64,000 nt of DNA from a bacterium. Its GTDB lineage: Bacteria > Bacteroidota > Bacteroidia > B-17B0 > Aurantibacillaceae. Shown here piece after piece: positions 7,876-41,399 of the stretch (position 1 is the first letter of the stretch; every line of letters begins with the position of its first letter). The notes below the pieces were generated by a model. The model did no database searches and had not been told where the DNA came from. It was given only the letters and a program-made list of their open reading frames with translations. The position numbers were made by a program, and so were the translations under genes. The stretch lies in assembly GCA_029945625.1 (NCBI GenBank), contig JAQSCW010000055.1, forward strand, positions 62,001 to 126,000, given 5' to 3'.

Positions 7876-8026
7876 TCGCGCATTTTCTAAGTTAATTTCG
7901 TTCTAATTGTGCTAATTTTTTTAGTGCGACCCCAACTCATTTTTAGATGTGGCTAAACACTTGAAAAATTCCTTATTTAGAATGATTATAAATTAGGGAC
8001 TTGTATAAAATATTTAAAAAATTACC

Positions 8027-8056
8027 TTTATAATTATCAATCTTCTGTTAAATTTG
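8027..8056 (+). promoter_or_regulatory. Candidate housekeeping promoter of the act-cox operon
   Basis: TAAATTTG at 8049-8056 fits the Bacteroidota -7 box TAnnTTTG. TTTA at 8027-8030, 18 bases upstream, is one base off the -33 TTTG box. Transcription would begin near 8062 and leave a leader of about 60 bases before the cytochrome gene. The region is very AT-rich, so chance matches are possible. Confidence 0.4.
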
Positions 8057-8124
8057 CCAACGTTTTATGTCATGAATATGTCATAATTAGAGCGAAAACA
8101 GATTATATTTTCTCATTTTTATAT

Positions 8125-9408
8125 ATGAAAAACCAAATATCCAGGATTCCAATAAAAGCTTTGATGGCGGCAGTTTTCACGGTTTTTTTCTTCTCATCCG
8201 GCCTGCAGGCGCAGGATGGAGCGAAGTTATTCAAGCAAAATTGCGCTGTTTGCCACGTTTCGCATGGTGACCAGAAATTAACAGGACCCGGTTTGAAGGG
8301 GGTTTTTGACCGTGCGCCAAAGGGCGACTGGTTAACTAAGTGGGTATTAAACAGCGAAAAGGTAATTAAGTCGGGGGATGCCTACGCCAATAAGATTTAT
8401 GGTGAAAACGGCAAAGCTGCTATGACTGTTTTTGAAGGTCAACTTAGTCCTAAAGACATTGAAGCGGTATTGGCTTTCATTAAGGCCCCGGCTCCTGTGG
8501 CCGTGGTTGCTCCAAATGCCTCAACAGCACAAAGTGGAGAGCCGGTTCAGAATGGCGGTTCCATAGAGCCCTTGTATCTCTTGTTAGGAGTATTGATCAT
8601 CTTGGCCATTTTGTTGGTGGCTTTGCGCAGTGTAAGAACCTCCTTGCAAAATACCTCCAACCGGGTAGAGGGGAAAGACGAATTACCCGATGTTACCTTT
8701 TGGCAGGAAGTAAAAAACTGGATTTCAGGAAATCGCCGCTTGGTGGGGGTATTATCGATCATCCTTATTTTCGTAGGGATGAAGAGCTGCTGGGATGCGT
8801 GTTATAACATTGGTGTGTATTACAATTATCGTACGCAAGTAGGCTATAAGCCCGAACAACCTATAAAATTTTCACACAAAGTGCATGCAGGAGATAATGA
8901 GATTGCCTGTCAATATTGCCATAATTCTGTTGAAAAATCACGTCACGCAGGTATTCCTACAGTGAATGTATGTATGAATTGTCACAAAGGAATCACCACT
9001 GGTCCGCAATATCAAGGTGTTGAGATTGGTAAAATTTATGCCGCTGCCGGATTTGATGTGAAGACAGGAACATACGATAACAGCAAACAAAATCCATTAA
9101 GATGGATTAAGGTGCATAATCTTCCTGATCATGTCTATTTTAACCACTCGCAGCACGTAGTAGTTGGTCAGGTAGCTTGTGCGACCTGCCATGGCGATTT
9201 AAAAACAATGACAGTAGCTGAGCAAAAAGCGCCTCTCACCATGAAATGGTGTATTGAATGTCATCGTCAAACAGAAGTGTCGATGCAGGGCAATGCTTAT
9301 TATGACAGATTGCACAAGGCTTTAAAAGAAAAATATGCAGGGCAGTACGATGTGAAATTCACCGTGGATAAGATCGGCGGTTTGGAATGTACGAAGTGCC
9401 ACTATTAA
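8125..9408 (+). CDS. actA: Alternative complex III subunit A: multihaem cytochrome c
   Basis: This is the multihaem cytochrome c of the quinol:cytochrome c oxidoreductase (alternative complex III), first gene of the operon. It has a signal sequence, then a mono-haem cytochrome c domain with CAVCH at residues 40-44, two membrane segments (about 150-170 and 205-222), then a pentahaem domain with CQYCH, CMNCH, CATCH, CIECH and CTKCH. Six CxxCH sites are thus visible. The biochemically studied ActA of Rhodothermus is pentahaem, so the N-terminal cytochrome domain is an addition; I recall similar fused forms in Bacteroidota. It passes electrons within the periplasmic part of the complex. The next gene starts 31 bases downstream. 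Confidence 0.93.
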   Translation: MKNQISRIPIKALMAAVFTVFFFSSGLQAQDGAKLFKQNCAVCHVSHGDQKLTGPGLKGVFDRAPKGDWLTKWVLNSEKVIKSGDAYANKIYGENGKAAMTVFEGQLSPKDIEAVLAFIKAPAPVAVVAPNASTAQSGEPVQNGGSIEPLYLLLGVLIILAILLVALRSVRTSLQNTSNRVEGKDELPDVTFWQEVKNWISGNRRLVGVLSIILIFVGMKSCWDACYNIGVYYNYRTQVGYKPEQPIKFSHKVHAGDNEIACQYCHNSVEKSRHAGIPTVNVCMNCHKGITTGPQYQGVEIGKIYAAAGFDVKTGTYDNSKQNPLRWIKVHNLPDHVYFNHSQHVVVGQVACATCHGDLKTMTVAEQKAPLTMKWCIECHRQTEVSMQGNAYYDRLHKALKEKYAGQYDVKFTVDKIGGLECTKCHY

Positions 9409-29057: not shown

Positions 29058-29798
29058 TTAGAATGCATTTGCGTATTCAGTTTGATCCAACTTAATCAAA
29101 CTTGTTTTATTACGGATTAAATCAACGTATTTGAAAAAAGCATTGTCGTTTTTTAAATGTATTTGTGAAATGCTTAGGGTTCGAAGGTCTTTATATCCCT
29201 GCATCAAGATGTCATTTGTTGAATCTAAACCATGCTTTCTATTATGGAAATCGAGAATCATTTTATCTTCAAACTGCTCATGTTTTTTTATCCAGTTTTC
29301 AAACAAGCTCAGCCTAATATCCTGTATTGGTTTTGAGTATAAGGTTGCTGATGACCATATTTGAGTATCAACTTGAGATAATGATTTTAAATATTTATTT
29401 TGTCCATCCCAACGAAATTCGTTAAAGTATTGCAAGGCACCATTCGAATAATCAAGAATAAGTAATGTAAACGGCTCAACTCCATCTAAGTTGGTTTTGT
29501 CAGAAAACTCCGAGATGTCTTTGTATTCAAAACTTTCAAGTAAAATCAACCCTCGGCTTTTTACATAGTTGTATTCTTTTTTATGATTTACAAAAGCCCC
29601 ATTTAACAAACAAGCAGTTTTACCTTTGGAATCAGAAGCAATCCATGTACCACCCGCCTTTTCATCTTTGGGATAAATAAGACTTCTACCATTTTCTGAA
29701 TATCTGACAGGAGGAATGGTACGTCGACTTACTCTTTCATCTCTGCTGGAGGTGAAATAAAATCCATCTGAAGTTGGAACAAAAGTTACTGTGCACAT
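29058..29798 (-). CDS. NRDE/TANGO2 family protein
   Basis: The 246-residue protein begins MCTVTFVP and contains SRDERVSR, the NRDE-like motif region, plus DEKAGGTWIASDSKG and ACLLNGAF, all standard for the TANGO2/NRDE family. The N-terminal Cys may become the catalytic nucleophile of an Ntn-type fold after Met removal. Eukaryotic and bacterial relatives have been linked to haem handling, which would suit the neighbouring cytochrome P460, but this is inference. The start overlaps the end of the DinB gene by 13 bases. Confidence 0.85.
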   Translation of the reverse strand: MCTVTFVPTSDGFYFTSSRDERVSRRTIPPVRYSENGRSLIYPKDEKAGGTWIASDSKGKTACLLNGAFVNHKKEYNYVKSRGLILLESFEYKDISEFSDKTNLDGVEPFTLLILDYSNGALQYFNEFRWDGQNKYLKSLSQVDTQIWSSATLYSKPIQDIRLSLFENWIKKHEQFEDKMILDFHNRKHGLDSTNDILMQGYKDLRTLSISQIHLKNDNAFFKYVDLIRNKTSLIKLDQTEYANAF

Positions 29799-30292
29799 AC
29801 TTTAATATGACGAATGGTTGATGGAGCGTAACCAAAGTTATCCTTAACTAAGGAAGTCAATTCCATTTCTGTTATGGCAACTTTAATTAATGCTTGATGA
29901 TGAATACTATGTTCGAGATTATAAGCAAGCTCCCTGTAGAAGGAGGATTGAATATTAGTAGCATTTTGATTTTCGATTACTGAATAATCTGCGACAAATG
30001 TTACAGTGAAATCACATTTGACCTCCTTTAAAGCGATCACAATTTCTTCAATAGTATTTGTCGCAAATTGAAGATTGGTTTCCAACATTAGATCTCGTTG
30101 ACGAGCATCATAGTTAACGATTTTGCTTTCTTTCCCTTTGAAAAGGCATTGATAGAATTCTAAAATGTGCCTCACATGCTGTCCTATTGAAGCTTCGCTT
30201 AAGATTTCAAGCTTACGGTTATATTGATCCGCATTTAGACCGTTAAGTAGGTTCTTTATTTCTAATAAGTTATTTATGATGTGTCCCGTCAT
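29786..30292 (-). CDS. DinB-like four-helix protein
   Basis: The 168-residue protein has the DinB/YfiT layout: GQHVRHILEFY (first metal His) and YNLEHSIHHQALIKVAI (two more His), on a four-helix scaffold. Many members use a divalent metal in thiol transfer reactions with bacillithiol or mycothiol-like cofactors; most are uncharacterised. It overlaps the downstream NRDE gene by 13 bases and follows the cytochrome P460 gene in the same block. Confidence 0.82.
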   Translation of the reverse strand: MTGHIINNLLEIKNLLNGLNADQYNRKLEILSEASIGQHVRHILEFYQCLFKGKESKIVNYDARQRDLMLETNLQFATNTIEEIVIALKEVKCDFTVTFVADYSVIENQNATNIQSSFYRELAYNLEHSIHHQALIKVAITEMELTSLVKDNFGYAPSTIRHIKVCAQ

Positions 30293-30347: not shown

Positions 30348-30887
30348 TTATTTGGAAAAGATAAAATCCTTGCTTGAAGCAGCATTGTGACATCCGCCGC
30401 ACATTCCACTCATTAAACTAGCACCACGCATTGGTTGGCCACCGGCATCTTTGGCAATTTTGCCATCGGGCATAAGCATAAAAAATTCCCAATCACCTAT
30501 GCTCGAGTTAAAATTGTTTCCACGTTTCACCATCGCCACAGTTTCACTTACAGTATTTGCTGGATTTGTGCTTCGCTTCACTATAATAGTACCAACAGGA
30601 TACTTCCCACTAACCGGATTTTGACCATCCTTAAAATGCACCATTCTTGTTACAGTGCTGTCGTTACCCGCATGCGCAGTTCCTAAAGAAGGACTCGGTC
30701 CAGTTTTCACAGATTGTACGGTCCAAGTTGTATAACTTAAAAAGGATGTGCTATCCGCGATGAACTCCTGAGTAGCTGTTGGTGTTGGTTCAGGTGTTAC
30801 ATCATTTTTTTCCTTTTTACAAGATTGAGTAATTGCAAGCGTAAGAAATAGAAAGCCAATTGTTATGGAAAGGGTTGTTTTTTTCAT
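30348..30887 (-). CDS. Cytochrome P460-family lipoprotein
   Basis: The 179-residue protein has a lipoprotein signal (TQSCKKEK, Cys near 23), a mid-region YPVGTIIVKR and WEFFMLMPDGK, and a C-terminal haem site CGGCH (residues 163-167) followed by SSKDFIF. This C-terminal CxxCH after an all-beta domain is the cytochrome P460/cytochrome c'-beta pattern. Relatives oxidise hydroxylamine or bind NO. P460 itself needs a cross-linking Lys whose presence I cannot assign. It heads a block of seven minus-strand genes and has the ECF-type promoter motif upstream. Confidence 0.8.
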   Translation of the reverse strand: MKKTTLSITIGFLFLTLAITQSCKKEKNDVTPEPTPTATQEFIADSTSFLSYTTWTVQSVKTGPSPSLGTAHAGNDSTVTRMVHFKDGQNPVSGKYPVGTIIVKRSTNPANTVSETVAMVKRGNNFNSSIGDWEFFMLMPDGKIAKDAGGQPMRGASLMSGMCGGCHNAASSKDFIFSK

Positions 30888-31062: not shown

Positions 31063-31734
31063 CTAATGATTTGTTAGCGACTTCAATGCTATGGCCGTAT
31101 TTATTTCGGCAACAATATCCTGGGCAACCTCCTTTTTAGACTTGAGTTCAAAATCAGTATGGGTTAAGTCTTTTCTCAAAACAGAAACTTTGTTCGTGTC
31201 ATGGCCAAATCCTTCGCCAGTTGCATTGGTGGTATTTAGGACTATAAAATCAAAATTTTTCTTTTTAAGTTTCCCCTCTCCATACTGCATAAGGTTGTCT
31301 GTTTCTAGAGCAAAACCAACTGAAATCTGATTGGGATTCTTTATTTTTCCAAATTCAAAAGCGATGTCCGGATTCTTAATTAATTCAATAGTCATCCTAT
31401 CATCATTCTTTTTTATTTTGGAAGCCTCCATTTTCATTGGTCTATAATCGGCCACCGCAGCAGTAAAAATGGCTATATCGATTTGCTGGAAGTGCTTGTT
31501 GCACACTTCCAACATTTCCAAGGCCGATTGAATTTTATAAACTCGCTCTGATGGCAAATTAGAATTTATGCATGAGGGGCCTGTGACCAAAATAACATCA
31601 GCACCTTCACTGTATAGCAGTTCTGCGATAGCATACCCCATTTTGCCCGTTGATGCATTGGAAATAAACCTTACAGGATCAATAAGTTCTTTAGTTGGAC
31701 CCGCTGTGATAAGTATCCGCTTTCCTTTTATCAT
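31063..31734 (-). CDS. Stand-alone CoaB-type phosphopantothenate-cysteine ligase domain
   Basis: The ATG at 31734, four bases after the YceI stop, is chosen over a TTG at 31749; the product is 223 residues. It contains the CoaB signature: ITAGPTKELIDPVRFISNAS followed by TGKMG, FTAAVADYRP, and a Lys-rich loop LKKKNFDFIVLN. In most bacteria this domain is fused behind the CoaC decarboxylase in CoaBC; here the CoaC part is absent. It would join cysteine to 4'-phosphopantothenate using CTP. As an island gene it may be an extra copy or act on another thiol-building substrate. Last gene of the second block. Confidence 0.82.
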   Translation of the reverse strand: MIKGKRILITAGPTKELIDPVRFISNASTGKMGYAIAELLYSEGADVILVTGPSCINSNLPSERVYKIQSALEMLEVCNKHFQQIDIAIFTAAVADYRPMKMEASKIKKNDDRMTIELIKNPDIAFEFGKIKNPNQISVGFALETDNLMQYGEGKLKKKNFDFIVLNTTNATGEGFGHDTNKVSVLRKDLTHTDFELKSKKEVAQDIVAEINTAIALKSLTNH

Positions 31735-31738
31735 TGAA

Positions 31739-32299
31739 TTAATATTCAATTTTAAAGGTCACTTCGATAGTCTTAGCAATATTTTTCGAAGGCTTACCCT
31801 TTTCGAAGGCTATTTTATAATCAGCCAAAACTATTTTTAATTTTGTATCTACAGTAATAAGACCTCCCTTTACAGAAATTACTGCTTTTTCTGTTACAGG
31901 GTTAGTCGTTTCCTTAATTGTCATATCACCACTAACTGTAGCATTATAAACGCCGTCTTTCGAAAAATTAATATCTTTTAAGTTGGTAATTTTTCCCTTA
32001 AATTTTGCTTTAGGAAATGTCTTAGTATTAAGAAAATCTTTACTATTGAAATGCTTTTGCATAAGCGCTTTTTCAAATTCAAAACTTTGCATGGGTACCG
32101 AAACAACCACTTCTCCATTTTCCTTGCTTAACGTAGCGGTTGAGGCATAATTAACGGCCTTAATATCTTCTGCGTCGGTGTGTGAAAAAATATCAACTTG
32201 ACTTTTTTTACTAACTAATTTCTCATCTGTTTGCTTAAAACTAAATAGGCCTACCATTGATAAGATCATTACTGTGGTTTTTAAATTTTTCATTTTCAT
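31739..32299 (-). CDS. YceI-like secreted lipid-binding protein
   Basis: The 186-residue protein has a signal sequence and the YceI beta-barrel features: MQSFEFEKALMQKHFNSKDFL, FPKAKFKG, and GDMTIKETTNPVTEKAVI. YceI proteins bind polyisoprenoid or similar lipids in the periplasm. It sits between the OB-fold protein and CoaB in one block, 26 bases after the former and four bases before the latter's ATG. Ligand unknown. Confidence 0.88.
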   Translation of the reverse strand: MKMKNLKTTVMILSMVGLFSFKQTDEKLVSKKSQVDIFSHTDAEDIKAVNYASTATLSKENGEVVVSVPMQSFEFEKALMQKHFNSKDFLNTKTFPKAKFKGKITNLKDINFSKDGVYNATVSGDMTIKETTNPVTEKAVISVKGGLITVDTKLKIVLADYKIAFEKGKPSKNIAKTIEVTFKIEY

Positions 32300-34084: not shown

Positions 34085-34777
34085 TTAGTTTCTGATACTC
34101 ATATACAAATCGTTTTTCTTGATATAAAGATTAATGGTTTCGGGATTCATGTAACGTTGATTTAATTTTTCCGCATTGCCATCACTGGCCGCACCTTTCC
34201 ATTCTTTAATTTGAAGAGATTCTCTTACATATTTACTCCAATCAAACAACTGAAACCCTAAACCATGATTAATACATGCAAGATCAGTATTGAATTCAAA
34301 TCGGTCAGTATTGCTAGATTTGAATTTTTTAAAAAAAAGGCGGATCAGCTGAAAAGATGTTTTGTTATTAAATTCAACTAAATGTGCCAGTTCATGACCC
34401 AAGACACCGATCTGTGCGTTATACGGCAAGTTTTTAAATAAGATTGGACGTATTTGCTTGATTGTATTCTTGCTTATAGTTATGATATATGTGCGTTGTT
34501 TCCTTTTTCTAATTAATCCCATCAAACGTGGCCTTGTTGACAGAGGAGTTATTCGGTTTCGGAACTGGAAGATAATTTTTGATTCTTTTAATTCGGGATA
34601 ACAAGACAAAGCATTTAGAACCTGACTTTTAATTTCTTCGGGAATAGTTTTTCGGTTACCTAAATTTGTATCGCACAAAGCTTGGCCTTGTGCTGCACTC
34701 AAACATTGAACAGGAAATTGGGCCGACAAAATGCTAGCTGAGCAGAATATTAATAGGATGATGACAAGTTTATCCAT
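34085..34777 (-). CDS. Exported HExxH protein, putative metallopeptidase
   Basis: The 230-residue protein has a signal sequence ending near ILSAQ and a zinc motif GHELAHLVEF (His128, Glu129, His132). A later Asp or Glu region (RFEFNTDLACINHG) could give the third ligand in a gluzincin-like arrangement. Not assigned to a named family. It is the last gene of the LysE/ATP-grasp block, one base after the barrel protein. If active it acts outside the cytoplasm. The 156 bases downstream contain the next block's promoter motif. Confidence 0.65.
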   Translation of the reverse strand: MDKLVIILLIFCSASILSAQFPVQCLSAAQGQALCDTNLGNRKTIPEEIKSQVLNALSCYPELKESKIIFQFRNRITPLSTRPRLMGLIRKRKQRTYIITISKNTIKQIRPILFKNLPYNAQIGVLGHELAHLVEFNNKTSFQLIRLFFKKFKSSNTDRFEFNTDLACINHGLGFQLFDWSKYVRESLQIKEWKGAASDGNAEKLNQRYMNPETINLYIKKNDLYMSIRN

Positions 34778-34778
34778 G

Positions 34779-35372
34779 CTAAGTTCTCTTAAGCATATAA
34801 TTGAAGTGAAGTAATAGACTGTTCATCCAGCCCTGCCCAACATCCTTTCCATTTGTCACAACATTAATTTCTCTCCCAAATCCAGTTGTAATTCCAAACT
34901 GTAAGGGAATTGACTTAAGGCGAATAAAATAGCCACCCTCTATCCAAGGCTGGAGGACTAAAGTGTAAGTTTGACCCTTTGTATAGTTCGGTTCTCCAAT
35001 ATCATTTTTCCAATTTATCCACATGTTCCAAATATCACAATGGAGACCAAAAACTATTTTACCCAACTTTAATGGAACGTGTTTCCTGTATCCCATTGAT
35101 CCGCCAAAACCTTTCCCTTTCTCATTATCGTTGTAGGGACTATAGTCTTTTCTGTCTGCATAATTAATTCCTAATCGAAACAAAAGAGAGCCTTTTTGAG
35201 AAACGTAATTTTCGAACGTAACACATGAAATAAGCCCAGCGGGATAGATTTGTAGGGAAAGACCAACTGTTTTAAAGGAATGTATTGTGTCTTTTTTTTG
35301 TGCAAATAACCGATGGCCTTTCACTATGCAAATCATAAGTAAGAAAATGTAAATAATCCGTTTCGTTTTCAT
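34779..35372 (-). CDS. Exported beta-strand-rich protein, probable outer-membrane barrel
   Basis: The 197-residue protein has a signal sequence ending at LFAQ. A series of amphipathic strands rich in Tyr, Trp and Gly follows (FKTVGLSLQIYPAG, GSLLFRLGINYAD, TLVLQPWIEGGYF), ending with LLLHFNYMLKRT, an aromatic C-terminal strand. This looks like a small outer-membrane barrel of the kind common in Bacteroidota; no specific family is recognised. Three bases separate its start from the ATP-grasp stop. Confidence 0.6.
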   Translation of the reverse strand: MKTKRIIYIFLLMICIVKGHRLFAQKKDTIHSFKTVGLSLQIYPAGLISCVTFENYVSQKGSLLFRLGINYADRKDYSPYNDNEKGKGFGGSMGYRKHVPLKLGKIVFGLHCDIWNMWINWKNDIGEPNYTKGQTYTLVLQPWIEGGYFIRLKSIPLQFGITTGFGREINVVTNGKDVGQGWMNSLLLHFNYMLKRT

Positions 35373-35375
35373 TAA

Positions 35376-36422
35376 TTAAATCAATTTCAGTTGTTCTTCC
35401 AATTGTTTATTTGCCCTGAGCATTTCACGGCCAGCTTTATAATCAAGATATGGATGTCCATTGTTAAAGTTCATCCTGCTTATTGAGTACATAAGTTTCC
35501 AATGTTTTATTATTTCTTTCCAAGCAAATAATAAAGAATGTTTTGGGTCATAAATATGTGTGGGGTCACTTCCTGCTCCGTTAAGTTCAATAATGCTAAA
35601 ATTTCGACCTTGTTTTAATTCATCCATTGACGAATACCGTATATCTAATCTTCCGAAAAAGAAACCGGGAATCTGTGTACAAATCTTATTCATTGTATCA
35701 GTCAGCTTTTGATCAACCTCATGGGTAATATCTAAAAATTTAGCGCCTCTGGTATGGCTTCCAAATGGAACTAAAATAAAGATTTGCTTAGCCACTAAGA
35801 TGGTGTTCAAGTAATCGCCGTATTTTCTTTTTAAAGTTTTGAGCTGAAAATGACTTCTCGGATCTTTTTTAATTAGTTGTAGAATACTTTGAATACCATC
35901 TCCCTCCACACACATAAACTCTTTTGAAACAATACCAGTTATAATTCCGTGAGATTCATTTGGAAGTCGCACATAAAACAAACCTATTTCATGTGGAAAT
36001 TCTATTAACTCTTGCAATAAAAAACTATATGGCATTTTGGCCATGTAATTTTGCAGTTCTTCATCAGAGTTAATTTTATCAACGCCAAATGATTTCATGC
36101 CTATATCAGGCTTGGCTATCATTGGAAATTCAATCCCTTTGGTGCGGCAATAAGTAAGGATAGATTCTATATTTCTGTTATCGTTTACAAGAATGGTCTT
36201 AGGGATATATTGTTGTGGAATCAAATCATAAATTTCTTCTTTAGATTCCATTGCCATTCCGCCATTTTTAATACTTGGATTTGCAGCATTAAAAAAGAAG
36301 AAAGATCTCGCCTTTAACGCCAAATAGAACCAAACGGGGAAAATAGGGTAATAAACCATGGCCATTGGCCAATATTCCCAATTTAGTAGTCGATGAATTT
36401 TCAATTTTATGTAAGTCTGCAT
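35376..36422 (-). CDS. ATP-grasp domain protein
   Basis: The 348-residue protein shows the ATP-grasp order: a Lys-bearing FPMIAKPDIGMKSFGVDKI (about 115-133), YSFLLQELIEFPHEIGLFYVR, and the metal-binding FFFGRLDIRYSS...FSIIELNGAGSDPTHIYD near residues 270-305. The HEIGLFYVR and ELNG motifs resemble D-Ala-D-Ala ligase-like proteins. The first 45 residues are aromatic and could associate with the membrane. It presumably ligates an acid to an amine using ATP. Neighbours are a LysE-type exporter, a barrel and a metallopeptidase. Substrate unknown. Confidence 0.72.
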   Translation of the reverse strand: MQTYIKLKIHRLLNWEYWPMAMVYYPIFPVWFYLALKARSFFFFNAANPSIKNGGMAMESKEEIYDLIPQQYIPKTILVNDNRNIESILTYCRTKGIEFPMIAKPDIGMKSFGVDKINSDEELQNYMAKMPYSFLLQELIEFPHEIGLFYVRLPNESHGIITGIVSKEFMCVEGDGIQSILQLIKKDPRSHFQLKTLKRKYGDYLNTILVAKQIFILVPFGSHTRGAKFLDITHEVDQKLTDTMNKICTQIPGFFFGRLDIRYSSMDELKQGRNFSIIELNGAGSDPTHIYDPKHSLLFAWKEIIKHWKLMYSISRMNFNNGHPYLDYKAGREMLRANKQLEEQLKLI

Positions 36423-36428
36423 AAATAA

Positions 36429-37103
36429 TTATTTTCTCTCTTCTCTATTAATTTCAAGCAATTTCAATCGAGCAATTTTTAAAAATGGGAACATCAAATA
36501 AAGTGCAAACCCTAGGTAAAAAAGGCCCATTATCCATGAGATTAACGCACTGTACTTTGTGTAATTTTCAAAAATGAGTCGTCCTGCAAAAATAAAAATC
36601 AGAAAACCTGCCACAGAACCAATAGCAATTCCGAAAATATAAAAAGAGAACATACCGGGTTGTTTATCCAATGTATTTTTTGCGATTAACACAGTGTTCC
36701 AACTAGCCCAAAACGGCAGATGCATTGGGTTCAAAGCGCTCATCAATAATCCAAGTAAGAACGGAGATTGTATTAAAGGAAATGGTGTTTTACTAAACTC
36801 AACATTGGATGCGTTTGTTGCCGAGTGAAAATTTGAAACAGCAAGAAACAAGAGTAAGGAAATAGTAACTGGCATCAAATAGTTGAACAGTTTGCTGCCA
36901 ATCTTTAGTTTATCCGTAAAATTTAGTGAAAGTCTAACGATAATTAATTCGACAAGAATAGCAGCCGCAGAAAAAATTAGTGCAGCCTTAGTTGTCTGAG
37001 AGGCAGTAATCTGAAAGGCTGTAATATTTAGGCTGCCAAATGGCAGACTTCCTAAAAAGCTTATGAAGAGTCCGGATGAATAAATTTTCAAACGCCTCTT
37101 CAT
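36429..37103 (-). CDS. LysE/RhtB-type exporter
   Basis: The ATG at 37103 (KRRLKIYSSG) is preferred over a TTG at 37109. The 224-residue product has six hydrophobic segments, beginning GLFISFLGSLPFGSLNITAF, the LysE-family N-terminal pattern (PGP replaced by PFG). ALNPMHLPFWASWNTV matches the NPxxxxFW motif in the fourth helix. LysE-family proteins export amino acids or derivatives. It is first in the block that continues with the ATP-grasp ligase six bases later, suggesting export of its product. ECF-type motif A lies 73 bases upstream. Confidence 0.78.
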   Translation of the reverse strand: MKRRLKIYSSGLFISFLGSLPFGSLNITAFQITASQTTKAALIFSAAAILVELIIVRLSLNFTDKLKIGSKLFNYLMPVTISLLLFLAVSNFHSATNASNVEFSKTPFPLIQSPFLLGLLMSALNPMHLPFWASWNTVLIAKNTLDKQPGMFSFYIFGIAIGSVAGFLIFIFAGRLIFENYTKYSALISWIMGLFYLGFALYLMFPFLKIARLKLLEINREERK

Positions 37104-37175
37104 GCCCAAGGATAAGAATTAGATGATTTCCTGCTCTTTTGATCCGAAAAAGATAGTGATATAATGTACATACTC

Positions 37176-37212: not shown

Positions 37213-37494
37213 TTAGTAATTTTCTGAATTATCTTCAATAACCTTCGATATCCTCATTTTACTGGCGTCGGATAGCTTTAAATTGTTTACTTGAACATTC
37301 TTAACCCTACCTGAGTTTAATACATTCTCGATCAACAAACTTTGTTTTAGGTAGTTAGTGCAATGCTTGCACATTTTTAAGTGCATATTTAGCTGCATTC
37401 TTTCCAAATAACCTAAAGGTCGGCCATGACCCTTCTCGATTAGAAAAGTCGCCTTTTGACAAGAAAGCATTAAAAAATTCATCAATTTTTTCAT
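37213..37494 (-). CDS. Zinc-type anti-sigma factor-like protein
   Basis: The 93-residue protein starts three bases after the sigma factor stop. It contains the zinc anti-sigma pattern His38-x3-Cys42-x2-Cys45 (MHLKMCKHC), with another Cys at 12 and a helical C-terminal part. It has no membrane segment, so it would be a soluble, possibly redox-sensing anti-sigma factor. Its place right behind the sigma gene is the usual arrangement. The redox-type cargo downstream fits thiol sensing, but that is inference. Confidence 0.78.
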   Translation of the reverse strand: MKKLMNFLMLSCQKATFLIEKGHGRPLGYLERMQLNMHLKMCKHCTNYLKQSLLIENVLNSGRVKNVQVNNLKLSDASKMRISKVIEDNSENY

Positions 37495-37497
37495 CAG

Positions 37498-38076
37498 CTA
37501 GGTATTAATCCAATTTTTTTCAAGGCAAGCTCTTAATTGAAGCTTGGCGCGATGAATGATTACCCAATAGTTAGTCGCAGTAATATTCAATTCCTTACAC
37601 ACTATTTCAGTTTCTTGTTCTTCAACCAATTTTAACAAAATTAATTGCTTTTGGTTTTCCTGCAATTTATCAATGCATTGATTTAAGGCATGAGCTAATT
37701 CCTTATTTTCAACCGCCTTTGAGTAATCAATTCCCCAATCTTTTGGCTGTGATTCTTGTTTCCAATCACCATCATCTGCAAAATGATTCGTAGAATTCTC
37801 AACACCATTAAATTGCAAAGACCTTAATTCATATTTAGTCGAGGATTTTCTATAATAGTCGGCAATTTTAAATTTCAATATTGCTAGCAACCAAGTTTTC
37901 TCTGTACTATCTCCTTTAAAGTTGTTTTGTGATTTAAGTCCGGCAAGAAATGTTTCCTGAACCCAATCTTCAGCCAATTGCGTATTACTAGTTTTCCTCA
38001 TTGCGTATGCAAAGAGATCGTCTCCGAAATCTTTTATCCAGTTTTGAGGTTGCAATACGTTTTTCGTTTCGGCCAT
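37498..38076 (-). CDS. ECF-type RNA polymerase sigma factor
   Basis: The 192-residue protein has region 2 (DDLFAYAMRKTSNTQLAEDWVQETFLAGLKS, with the core-binding and -10 motifs) and region 4 (LQENQKQLILLKLVEEQETEIVCKELNITATNYWVIIHRAKLQLRACLE, the -35 helix-turn-helix), with no region 3. This is an ECF sigma factor. It is followed by a zinc-type anti-sigma gene. It has a good housekeeping promoter of its own rather than the TGTAAGGA motif. I infer that it reads promoter motifs A, B and C in this island. Confidence 0.9.
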   Translation of the reverse strand: MAETKNVLQPQNWIKDFGDDLFAYAMRKTSNTQLAEDWVQETFLAGLKSQNNFKGDSTEKTWLLAILKFKIADYYRKSSTKYELRSLQFNGVENSTNHFADDGDWKQESQPKDWGIDYSKAVENKELAHALNQCIDKLQENQKQLILLKLVEEQETEIVCKELNITATNYWVIIHRAKLQLRACLEKNWINT

Positions 38077-39485: not shown

Positions 39486-40307
39486 CTATAACTCTTTTAG
39501 TAACTGAGAAACCATTTTAAATCGTTCAATTACTTTATCTCCTGCATCTCTCACTTCATACATGGCATTAATTTCATCTTCAGAAAATCCTTGTAAGCGA
39601 GTAGATAAAATTTGCTTTAACTTATCTGATAATTCTGAATTGCCAGCAACAATTATTTTGATCTCTCGGCCAAGTAGTTTCGCAGAAGCAATTGGAAAAT
39701 CGAAGTTGTCCCTTATTAAATCTTCGTGTTCTACACCTTCAAATAATTGGTCTCCAGCTATCTCGCCATAATTTTCTAACAAGAAATAAAAATCCTGTAA
39801 ATCCTTTGCTCGTCTATCAGGCTTTTCAAGAAAGGCAATCAATTTTAATATGCATAGACCGGGCAGGGTAACAACCTTAAAGTCGCCTTCAACAATTTGT
39901 GCGTGAGCCACAGCTTCTTTGGTTCCGTAAACAGAAAGTTCGGTCGGAGGATTCTCTAAAAGAACTTCCCCGTTTTTTTCGATGCCACCAAATGGAATGA
40001 GATCAATAGTTCCATTGAAATAAAAACGATAAGGTTCTTCTTCATCTCTTTTAAAACCATAAGTTTCAGTTAGTGCTTTAATGAGATCTTGATATTGTTT
40101 GTGTTCATTGATGTAAATACAAAAGTCAACGTCCTCTGTTGTTCGCTTTTCGCCAAGGGGAATATGATCCGTCCACAAATCTCTCGCACGTGCGCCAATC
40201 AAATAATAATCTATCCCGAAGTTTTTAAAAACTAGTTCGAGAACTTCGAAAGTCTCCTTGAGGCCTTTGTTTTTTAAGCGTTCAAAATTTTCCTTTAAGA
40301 ATGTCAT
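39486..40307 (-). CDS. AbiEii-type nucleotidyltransferase toxin
   Basis: The ATG at 40307 lies inside the 3' end of the upstream gene (26-base overlap); a TTG at 40331 is also possible. The 273-residue protein has the nucleotidyltransferase layout: YYLIGARARDL, then TTEDVDFCIYI with the metal-binding Asp pair, then FNGTIDLIPFGG with a third Asp. It is followed by a helical region with LKLIAFLEKPDRRAKDLQDFYFLL, typical of AbiEii/AbiGii-like proteins. Such toxins modify tRNA or other acceptors and underlie abortive infection. Paired with an AbiEi antitoxin upstream, it forms a type IV toxin-antitoxin locus. Confidence 0.85.
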   Translation of the reverse strand: MTFLKENFERLKNKGLKETFEVLELVFKNFGIDYYLIGARARDLWTDHIPLGEKRTTEDVDFCIYINEHKQYQDLIKALTETYGFKRDEEEPYRFYFNGTIDLIPFGGIEKNGEVLLENPPTELSVYGTKEAVAHAQIVEGDFKVVTLPGLCILKLIAFLEKPDRRAKDLQDFYFLLENYGEIAGDQLFEGVEHEDLIRDNFDFPIASAKLLGREIKIIVAGNSELSDKLKQILSTRLQGFSEDEINAMYEVRDAGDKVIERFKMVSQLLKEL

Positions 40308-41292
40308 TATAAATTTTTTGTGCTGTTTCAATGCAACGATGATCTCCGGTATTCATTAAATCTGTATAAACAAGAATTGGATCAACGGCTTCAAAATTTG
40401 CATTATCGTGATTCCAAAATTTCTTGTACGCAATCACATATCCTTTTGGATCTGGAATTAGTTTATAGTTTTTCATTAACTCAACTCTGGTTTCCGTTGT
40501 GTATAAAGTCAGCACTCCGGGCTTCAAGTAATTGGTAAGTAATTGTCCCGCCGGTTCCCCGCCCCAGCAAGTCTTACCCGGCTTTAATTGAATGTCTCGC
40601 CAATTAATAAAATCATCAGGCTTTAAGAACTTGTATCTTCCAATTTCCAATTCGGGTTGAAGCTTTTCCGCATATTTAACCATCCATGTATTCAACAGTT
40701 CCTTTTTGTTGATGAGTAAATTTTCGTCCTTGTTCTTTCTAAGAAGGAATCCCTTTTCTTTCAGTCCATTCAGAATGTAGTTCACATTTCCCAAGGCGAT
40801 ATCGGCTCTGTTGGCTATTTCACGGTAAGGAGCGTTTATTAAGGTTTCGTCTCTAAAAATGTCATATACCACTTTTAAGCCTGTTTTTGTAAACGCTCTG
40901 TTTATTTTTTCTTTCTCTTCCGGAAGTGTTTTGTTCGTTTCTATCCAAATCAAGTTTTTTCCGAATTTTAACCAAACATTCCCGTTGCCTTCTAAATAAG
41001 CAATGTTATGCCTTCGTAGTTCCTCTTTTATTTTCGGAAAGATGTGATTGGCTATCACCATAAGTGGTGCAGCCTTTTTTGCCAAAGCGTAAATTTGGGG
41101 AAGGTGGATTGTTCTGAGGTTATTTTTGACCTCGGCATTTAATTTAATCAGATTTCCTTCATGGGCGAGGTCTATTTGTCCGTCAATTTCGGTCTCTTTC
41201 CCTTTTAAGGCAATAGTTCTCCATTTACCTTTAATATGGGTAGTTTTTTGGAGGTTCGCCAAGGCCAGCGTTGCTATTTCAGGTTCGTTCAT
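40282..41292 (-). CDS. AbiEi-type antitoxin and autorepressor
   Basis: ATG at 41292 is chosen; a GTG two codons upstream overlaps a GTTCAC site. The 336-residue protein has a winged-helix region (INAPYREIANRADIALGNVNYILNGLKEKGFL) and the C-terminal AbiEi pattern, GGEPAGQLLTNYLKPG and later VDPILVYTDLMNTGDHRCIETAQ. The N-terminal part (IKLNAEVKNNLRTIHLPQIYALAKKA) resembles a nuclease-like fold seen in this subgroup. AbiEi proteins bind inverted repeats in their own promoter and neutralise the toxin. The upstream GTTCAC array fits that role. Confidence 0.85.
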   Translation of the reverse strand: MNEPEIATLALANLQKTTHIKGKWRTIALKGKETEIDGQIDLAHEGNLIKLNAEVKNNLRTIHLPQIYALAKKAAPLMVIANHIFPKIKEELRRHNIAYLEGNGNVWLKFGKNLIWIETNKTLPEEKEKINRAFTKTGLKVVYDIFRDETLINAPYREIANRADIALGNVNYILNGLKEKGFLLRKNKDENLLINKKELLNTWMVKYAEKLQPELEIGRYKFLKPDDFINWRDIQLKPGKTCWGGEPAGQLLTNYLKPGVLTLYTTETRVELMKNYKLIPDPKGYVIAYKKFWNHDNANFEAVDPILVYTDLMNTGDHRCIETAQKIYNDILKGKF

Positions 41293-41399
41293 GTTCACTT
41301 ATTAATATCGTTCACGTAATCGTGAACATACAAATATAGTGAACAAAAGCTAAAAAACCAAACCGTTCACTTTCCCGCTTTGTTCACGAATTCGTGAAC
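41293..41399. promoter_or_regulatory. GTTCAC operator array of the AbiE locus
   Basis: Two palindromes, GTTCACG-TAAT-CGTGAAC (41310-41327) and GTTCACGAATTCGTGAAC (41382-41399), plus single GTTCAC/GTGAAC half sites at 41293, 41339 and 41365. Seven half sites in 107 bases directly before the antitoxin gene suggest cooperative autoregulation, as known for AbiEi. Confidence 0.82.

Follow-up and report, generated by a model that had tools for sequence, protein, structure and literature searches.

In a 64,000-nucleotide stretch of a Bacteroidota contig (JAQSCW010000055.1, positions 62,001 to 126,000; the whole stretch is called the window below), we found that a gene for an ATP-grasp ligase belongs to a conserved gene team with the recurrent order YHS-DoxX-DinB-NRDE-ATP-grasp-LysE, seen in several loci. 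This team is the conserved unit, rather than the four adjacent genes (LysE-type exporter, ATP-grasp ligase, barrel-like protein and HExxH protein) singled out in a preliminary description of the window. Whether the four-gene block belongs to a conserved module for a metabolite, which would ligate, modify, deacylate and export a small amide, is in our judgement evenly balanced; going by the gene team, a small molecule with an amide link is the probable product. The six window genes on which the argument turns are the following (aa, amino acids; Ntn, N-terminal nucleophile).

36429-37109, minus strand: LysE-type exporter, 226 aa from a TTG start (PF01810, E 8.8e-11)
35376-36422, minus strand: ATP-grasp ligase, 348 aa (AlphaFold2 model and conserved residues)
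34779-35372, minus strand: small exported barrel-like protein, 197 aa (homologues in loci L021 and L022)
34085-34777, minus strand: exported HExxH putative metallopeptidase, 230 aa (motif invariant in 8 sequences)
29786-30292, minus strand: DinB-like protein, module core, 168 aa (PF05163, 18.8 bits, cut-off 23)
29058-29798, minus strand: divergent TANGO2/NRDE Ntn-fold protein, module core (PF05742, 54.7 bits, cut-off 22.6)

As the preliminary description had reported, the first four genes form a tight minus-strand run, separated by 6, 3 and 1 bases. Among the 58 window frames of at least 80 aa, no other run of three or more same-strand open reading frames has all its gaps within 6 bases (overlaps of up to 30 bases allowed). 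The end of the block given previously, 37103, is an ATG of the LysE gene, and the TTG start lies further up; the encoded protein is above the Pfam cut-off for its family (PF01810, 42.1 versus 25.6 bits). The DinB-NRDE pair lies on the same strand 3.8 kb downstream of the block, with six genes between, and so outside the region first described.

Neighbourhoods were compared in 64 ATP-grasp loci, the window included: 55 fetched with flanks from 80 ATP-grasp places, one of them the window's own, a further set of 5, and 4 named loci. A locus with no ATP-grasp frame (L041) was dropped and a fragment (L025) was excluded. A gene counted as a neighbour if it shared the strand of the ATP-grasp gene and lay no more than 8 kb from it. 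The neighbour profiles were derived from the 64 loci themselves, whose members therefore match by construction, and contigs are sometimes short, so that the absence of a neighbour may mark the end of a contig. The scripted counts exclude three GC-rich loci (L088, L094 and L095), and three homologues interrupted by a stop (G280, G081 and G153) were used as given by the frame finder. Genome-level counts refer to a sample of 395 Bacteroidia, 79 of which have the ATP-grasp gene.

By this rule the ATP-grasp gene was accompanied by a DinB-like gene in 46 of the 64 loci, by NRDE in 32 (a fusion counted) and by LysE in 31. DinB was present in all 32 NRDE-bearing loci, so that the three core genes stood together in 32, with LysE also present in 17 of those. 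YHS (22), DoxX (20), YceI (12), HExxH (11) and outer-membrane-protein-like (11) genes were further neighbours, and ECF (8), anti-sigma (6), HemJ-type (4) and barrel (3) genes were rarer ones. Just two loci had all four genes of the block: the window and L022, which comes from a Flavobacteriaceae metagenome-assembled genome; L021 has three of the four. ATP-grasp homologues are thus largely found without the other three genes, and the four-gene set was rejected as a conserved unit; it is a lineage-specific local arrangement of the wider gene team.

Gene linkage with NRDE was seen for one branch of the family. Matches to PF05742 fell into a divergent and a canonical group, separated by an empty interval from E 1e-30 to 1e-19. 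Among genomes with a divergent NRDE gene, 46 of 68 have the ATP-grasp gene, versus 33 of 327 others (Fisher p 2.5e-22, with no correction for kinship). In 35 of the 68 the two genes are no more than 8 kb apart, and in 34 of these they share a strand (the window's own genome counted). By contrast, none of the 46 canonical TANGO2 genes in the 395 genomes lay within 8 kb of an ATP-grasp gene; 16 were found in ATP-grasp genomes, and genome-level co-occurrence was only weak (p 0.011).

The core genes are also joined physically. In the window the DinB and NRDE genes overlap by 13 bases, as they do in 21 of the 33 loci that have the pair (including the window and the fusion) and in the two Salinivibrio loci that were read; in the other 12 they overlap by 14 bases, abut or lie at most 24 bases apart. 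Because the DinB stop shares its bases with the M-C-T start of NRDE, this arrangement suggests that the two genes are translationally coupled. In one locus (L033:8251-10041), NRDE and ATP-grasp are fused in a single 596-aa frame.

The ligase falls below every curated cut-off listed for it (best Pfam family PF13535, 18.3 versus 27 bits; NCBIfam likewise). Its assignment to the ATP-grasp superfamily comes from a predicted fold together with conserved ATP- and Mg-site residues. An AlphaFold2 model built from six sequences, with a mean predicted local distance difference test score (pLDDT) of 75.5, has the fold of an ATP-grasp enzyme, and residues K104, R258, D260, E279 and N281 are conserved in 98-100% of 63 sequences; we take K104 to belong to the ATP site and D260, E279 and N281 to be Mg ligands. 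The best match to the model was the ligase domain of the cyanophycin synthetase CphA1 (Z 15.1, 262 residues, 4.2 Å), and GshF, RimK, LysX and D-Ala ligases ranked lower. Cyanophycin synthetase consists of an ATP-grasp and a Mur-ligase-like domain and has about 630-880 aa. The CphA1/CphA2 ligase domain came first both by fold (VIA, Z 15.1) and by profile (hmmsearch 7ta5, E 1.8e-7), and its Mg-site residues are kept, whereas the 348-aa window protein matches the ATP-grasp part only, at about 13-18% identity, and is partnered by DinB and NRDE. It is therefore not a cyanophycin synthetase, and its homologue in Vibrio locus L089 scores 20.6 versus 850 bits with TIGR02068. Nor is it a D-alanine-D-alanine ligase by the curated model (TIGR01205, 12.6 versus 245.65 bits). 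In the first 60 residues, a short helical and fairly hydrophobic part replaces the full pre-ATP-grasp domain. A classical transmembrane segment was considered for this helix and rejected: median hydropathy over 62 sequences was 0.88, against 0.89 for the best later segment, and we therefore call the N terminus only hydrophobic. Two ATP-grasp paralogues occur in one neighbourhood of Lacibacter luteus (L024:3382-4461 and 7917-9029).

The NRDE protein is a member of the TANGO2/NRDE family, as judged from its PF05742 score and a modelled TANGO2 fold. The model, for which four sequences were used, has a mean pLDDT of 73.4 and best matched crystal structures of human TANGO2 (8sv7 and 9bwa; Z 18.5, 228 residues, 3.7 Å), followed by phospholipase-B-like proteins, isopenicillin N acyltransferase, bile salt hydrolases, penicillin V acylases and NAAA. 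Alignments begin at residue 2 of the model, which falls on residue 2 of bile salt hydrolases or residue 1 of penicillin V acylase; these are the nucleophile cysteines of those enzymes. M1-C2-T3 and R-D-E were invariant in 12 NRDE sequences, the window motif reading SRDE, with S for the usual N. Compared with human TANGO2 and Shewanella HtpA, the window protein keeps Cys2 and R-D-E but not the N of the motif, and it lies in a divergent subgroup tied to ATP-grasp and DinB, from which the unlinked canonical genes are set apart.

Loss of human TANGO2 leads to disease. The chemistry of the family is disputed in print, with acyl-CoA binding (PMC11867700), haem traffic and, by fold, an Ntn enzyme (PMC7612213) all proposed. 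If NRDE were a haem carrier, the module might serve haem or tetrapyrrole handling. PMC10470608 reports haem binding by HtpA, a TANGO2 homologue, and HemJ-type UPF0093 genes lie near DinB and ATP-grasp in 4 of the 64 loci, one of them checked with Pfam. However, these four loci (L054, L059, L070 and L075) lack an NRDE gene under the neighbour rule, haem traffic needs no ligase, and the role in haem is disputed by PMC12782551. We regard a haem function as very improbable.

In the DinB-like protein, H39, R41, H42, R64, R66, R120, E121, H128, H131 and H132 were invariant in 12 sequences. A histidine-rich, presumably metal-binding DinB-type protein beside an ATP-dependent ligase and a presumed Ntn amidohydrolase may recall the logic of ergothioneine synthesis by EgtA, EgtB, through its DinB domain, and EgtC; a difference is that the window protein, at 168 aa, has no room for an FGE-like domain. 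The DinB family has a role in thiol chemistry. Such chemistry is hinted at here by DinB itself, by a standalone CoaB-type ligase gene, which in the window lies close to DinB-NRDE and in L037 has a homologue flanked by NRDE and ATP-grasp, and by the YHS family, which is named for selenoproteins. A link to bacillithiol through DinB was considered and set aside, as BshC is present in 318 of 345 genomes and the comparison therefore has no power to discriminate.

The partnership of ligase, DinB and NRDE crosses phyla, with the transporter swapped. In a survey of 72,556 plasmid records, the ATP-grasp family was found in 28. The divergent NRDE was found in 8 and the DinB type in the same 8, all of them within the 28 and all from Vibrionaceae (Vibrio, Photobacterium and Salinivibrio); with the Vibrio NRDE and DinB queries at E 1e-8, no further record matched either. 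The order read in Vibrionaceae was VTT-ATP-grasp-DinB-NRDE, and in Vibrio L089 and Photobacterium L092 YHS and DoxX come next. A VTT domain is fused to the ligase in Azospirillum oryzae and Azospirillum sp. B510 (L086:6320-8038 and L096:5326-7098), and in the Komagataeibacter and Paracoccus records that were read no DinB or NRDE was annotated beside the ligase. With LysE in Bacteroidia and VTT in proteobacteria, the transporter has therefore been exchanged while the core was kept. The coupling of a ligase to an exporter that had been proposed for the window is thus supported, by LysE in Bacteroidia and by VTT, including the Azospirillum fusion, in proteobacteria.

These observations bear on whether the genes might merely be co-regulated, for example as a stress regulon, without a common compound. 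ECF/anti-sigma or Crp genes do lie near the module in some loci, the accessory genes vary and co-occurrence is incomplete. Co-regulation does not readily account for the NRDE-ATP-grasp fusion, a 13-base overlap kept in two phyla or the exchange of LysE and VTT around an unchanged core, and we consider it unlikely.

A pathway for a small amide can be proposed from what the data show, namely gene linkage, fusion, modelled folds and conserved residues; the catalytic steps, their order and the substrate are inferred. The ATP-grasp enzyme, perhaps membrane-associated, would use ATP to join an amine and a carboxylate into an amide. The DinB-like protein, with its histidine-rich presumed metal site and four invariant arginines, might then modify an anionic intermediate. 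The NRDE protein, with Cys2 as presumed nucleophile, would cleave or transfer an N-acyl group, and LysE, or VTT in proteobacteria, would carry the product over the inner membrane. In the lineage of the window, the barrel-like and HExxH proteins would be exported to work in the periplasm or at the outer membrane, with expression perhaps controlled by the neighbouring ECF/anti-sigma genes. A more specific version would have one amide pathway common to Bacteroidota and Vibrionaceae, in which the TANGO2-family protein is a dedicated Ntn N-acyl-amide hydrolase or acyltransferase acting on the ATP-grasp product and DinB is a metal-dependent catalyst, with ergothioneine-like logic applied to a new substrate; we put this forward only tentatively, as somewhat improbable.

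Several points weigh against the proposed amide pathway. Under the neighbour rule, DinB is absent in 18 of the 64 loci and NRDE in 32; 33 of the 79 ATP-grasp genomes have no divergent NRDE match at all, and 20 of the 28 ATP-grasp plasmid records lack such an NRDE or DinB. In the window itself the core is split into two halves by the six intervening genes, and a search of its genome for the YHS family gave no match. The DinB-like protein is below its Pfam cut-off (18.8 versus 23 bits), the ligase and NRDE models reach a pLDDT of only 73-76 from 4-6 sequences, with root-mean-square deviations from their templates of 3.7-4.2 Å, and S replaces N in the NRDE motif. Because canonical TANGO2 genes are never linked to ATP-grasp, conclusions may not extend to human TANGO2. 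A bacterial branch of the TANGO2 family is tied to an ATP-dependent amide ligase by gene order, a 13-base overlap and a fusion, which reduces the question of its chemical role to a few bench assays in harmless bacteria. If the more specific version above is right, the TANGO2 fold gains a genetically defined enzymatic partner; the module may also lead to an undescribed exported metabolite. The literature searched, in the portions available, contained no description of a ligase-DinB-NRDE-LysE or YHS-DoxX-DinB combination.

An aminolipid product is another way to read the same genes: the ligase would attach an amino acid to a lipid of the N-acyl amino-acid type and NRDE would remove or exchange acyl groups, which in Bacteroidota could include a Gly-Ser or Gly-Ser-Orn lipid ligase. 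An OlsF-like synthase gene lies beside the module, 1 base after DoxX, in Vibrio L089 (NF052615, 428 bits, below the cut-off of 620), and in Photobacterium L092 the frame after DoxX looks similar by eye. In L065, ATP-grasp-LysE is preceded by MlaE-, ABC- and MlaD-type genes, and L066 and L077 have such an arrangement by gene size and order only. The VTT-ligase fusion in Azospirillum, the likeness of the NRDE model to NAAA, isopenicillin N acyltransferase and penicillin V acylase, and the presence of GlsB in the window's own genome are also in keeping with a lipid substrate. PMC12746155 and PMC10191378 state that the serine-adding enzyme for glycine lipids is unknown, and PMC8433624 reports Gly-Ser-Orn lipids in Chitinophaga. 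However, the association predicted for a ligase acting on GlsB products is absent: GlsB-type genes were found in 48 of the 79 ATP-grasp genomes and in 198 of the remaining 316 (odds ratio 0.92, p 0.80), leaving 31 ATP-grasp genomes without a GlsB-like match at 1e-15. In addition, no OlsF-like frame occurs in the 64 Bacteroidia loci, and a control, Bacteroides ihuae, has GlsB and no TANGO2-family match. Since GlsB-type genes are not enriched, we did not adopt the aminolipid explanation in place of the small-amide pathway and judge it unlikely.

The preliminary description suggested that the block makes, exports and trims a small peptide or conjugate; we weighed the version in which exactly these four genes do so for a small peptide, with proteolysis as the trimming step. 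In its favour are the ligase plus exporter and an HExxH gene linked in 7 sample genomes. However, all four genes coincide in only 2 of 64 loci, with HExxH in 11 and the barrel in 3; the other 53 loci have no HExxH gene, and trimming of a peptide is therefore not supported as a general function. We consider this model extremely improbable. The link between HExxH and the ligase holds in part: HExxH homologues occupy 42 places in 37 of the 395 genomes, 7 of them within 8 kb of ATP-grasp and all 7 on the same strand (own genome counted), whereas congeners show another order with genes between, and genome-level co-occurrence alone was not significant (p 0.13). In eight homologues H128, E129, H132, E161 and D165 are invariant, giving HELAH and a downstream E-x3-D. 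Four of the eight gave a weak M48 match (best E 0.021), and a profile search against PDB sequences returned nothing but one ribosomal match, put down to chance (E 0.94). Outside the window, the genome encodes another HExxH paralogue with 25% identity (G000:C55:11663-12220). The companion gene encodes a protein that we call barrel-like for its likely signal peptide and strand-like pattern, read from the sequence, and its homologue directly follows ATP-grasp in L021 and L022; neither this protein nor the HExxH protein matched a Pfam or NCBIfam family at E 0.1.

In a ligase tree, which omits L073 because it is short, the window copy groups with L021 and L022 (100/99), apart from the ten included congener copies, which fall into two other groups. 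The LysE tree agrees on the grouping with L021 and L022; the DinB and NRDE trees did not place the window copies. The LysE-ATP-grasp-barrel-HExxH block may thus have been acquired from a Flavobacteriaceae-like source.

Further genes of the window surround the module.

37498-38076, minus strand: ECF sigma factor (TIGR02943-like, under the model's cut-off)
37213-37494, minus strand: anti-sigma factor (NF052368, 53.8 versus 50 bits)
31739-32299, minus strand: YceI-like protein, possible accessory (PF04264, E 2.2e-19)
31063-31749, minus strand: standalone DFP/CoaB-type ligase paralogue, possible accessory (PF04127, E 1.9e-66)

The ECF and anti-sigma genes lie just upstream of the block on the same strand, the anti-sigma gene 103 bases before LysE, and the operon probably starts upstream of LysE. 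Similar ECF genes occur within 8 genes of ATP-grasp in 5 of the 63 other loci (L032, L034, L038, L049 and L053). The window's YceI copy had no phmmer match at 1e-5 to the YceI genes near ATP-grasp in 12 of the 64 loci. Among the genes between the two halves of the module, none is a recurrent partner in the 63 other loci save the DFP-type gene, a homologue of which stands between NRDE and ATP-grasp in L037; another DFP gene is found elsewhere in the window's own genome (a 416-aa frame on contig C2). Two thioredoxin-type genes lie beyond the window NRDE, and each matches one of the 63 other loci.

A cytochrome P460-like protein is encoded next to DinB, at 30348-30887. Four loci (L054, L059, L070 and L075) combine a gene for a protein of about 300 aa with DinB, ATP-grasp and a HemJ/UPF0093-type gene, without NRDE. 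Upstream of the sigma factor, at 39486-41298, lie genes for an AbiEii-like nucleotidyltransferase and an AbiEi-like regulator, a candidate toxin-antitoxin pair.

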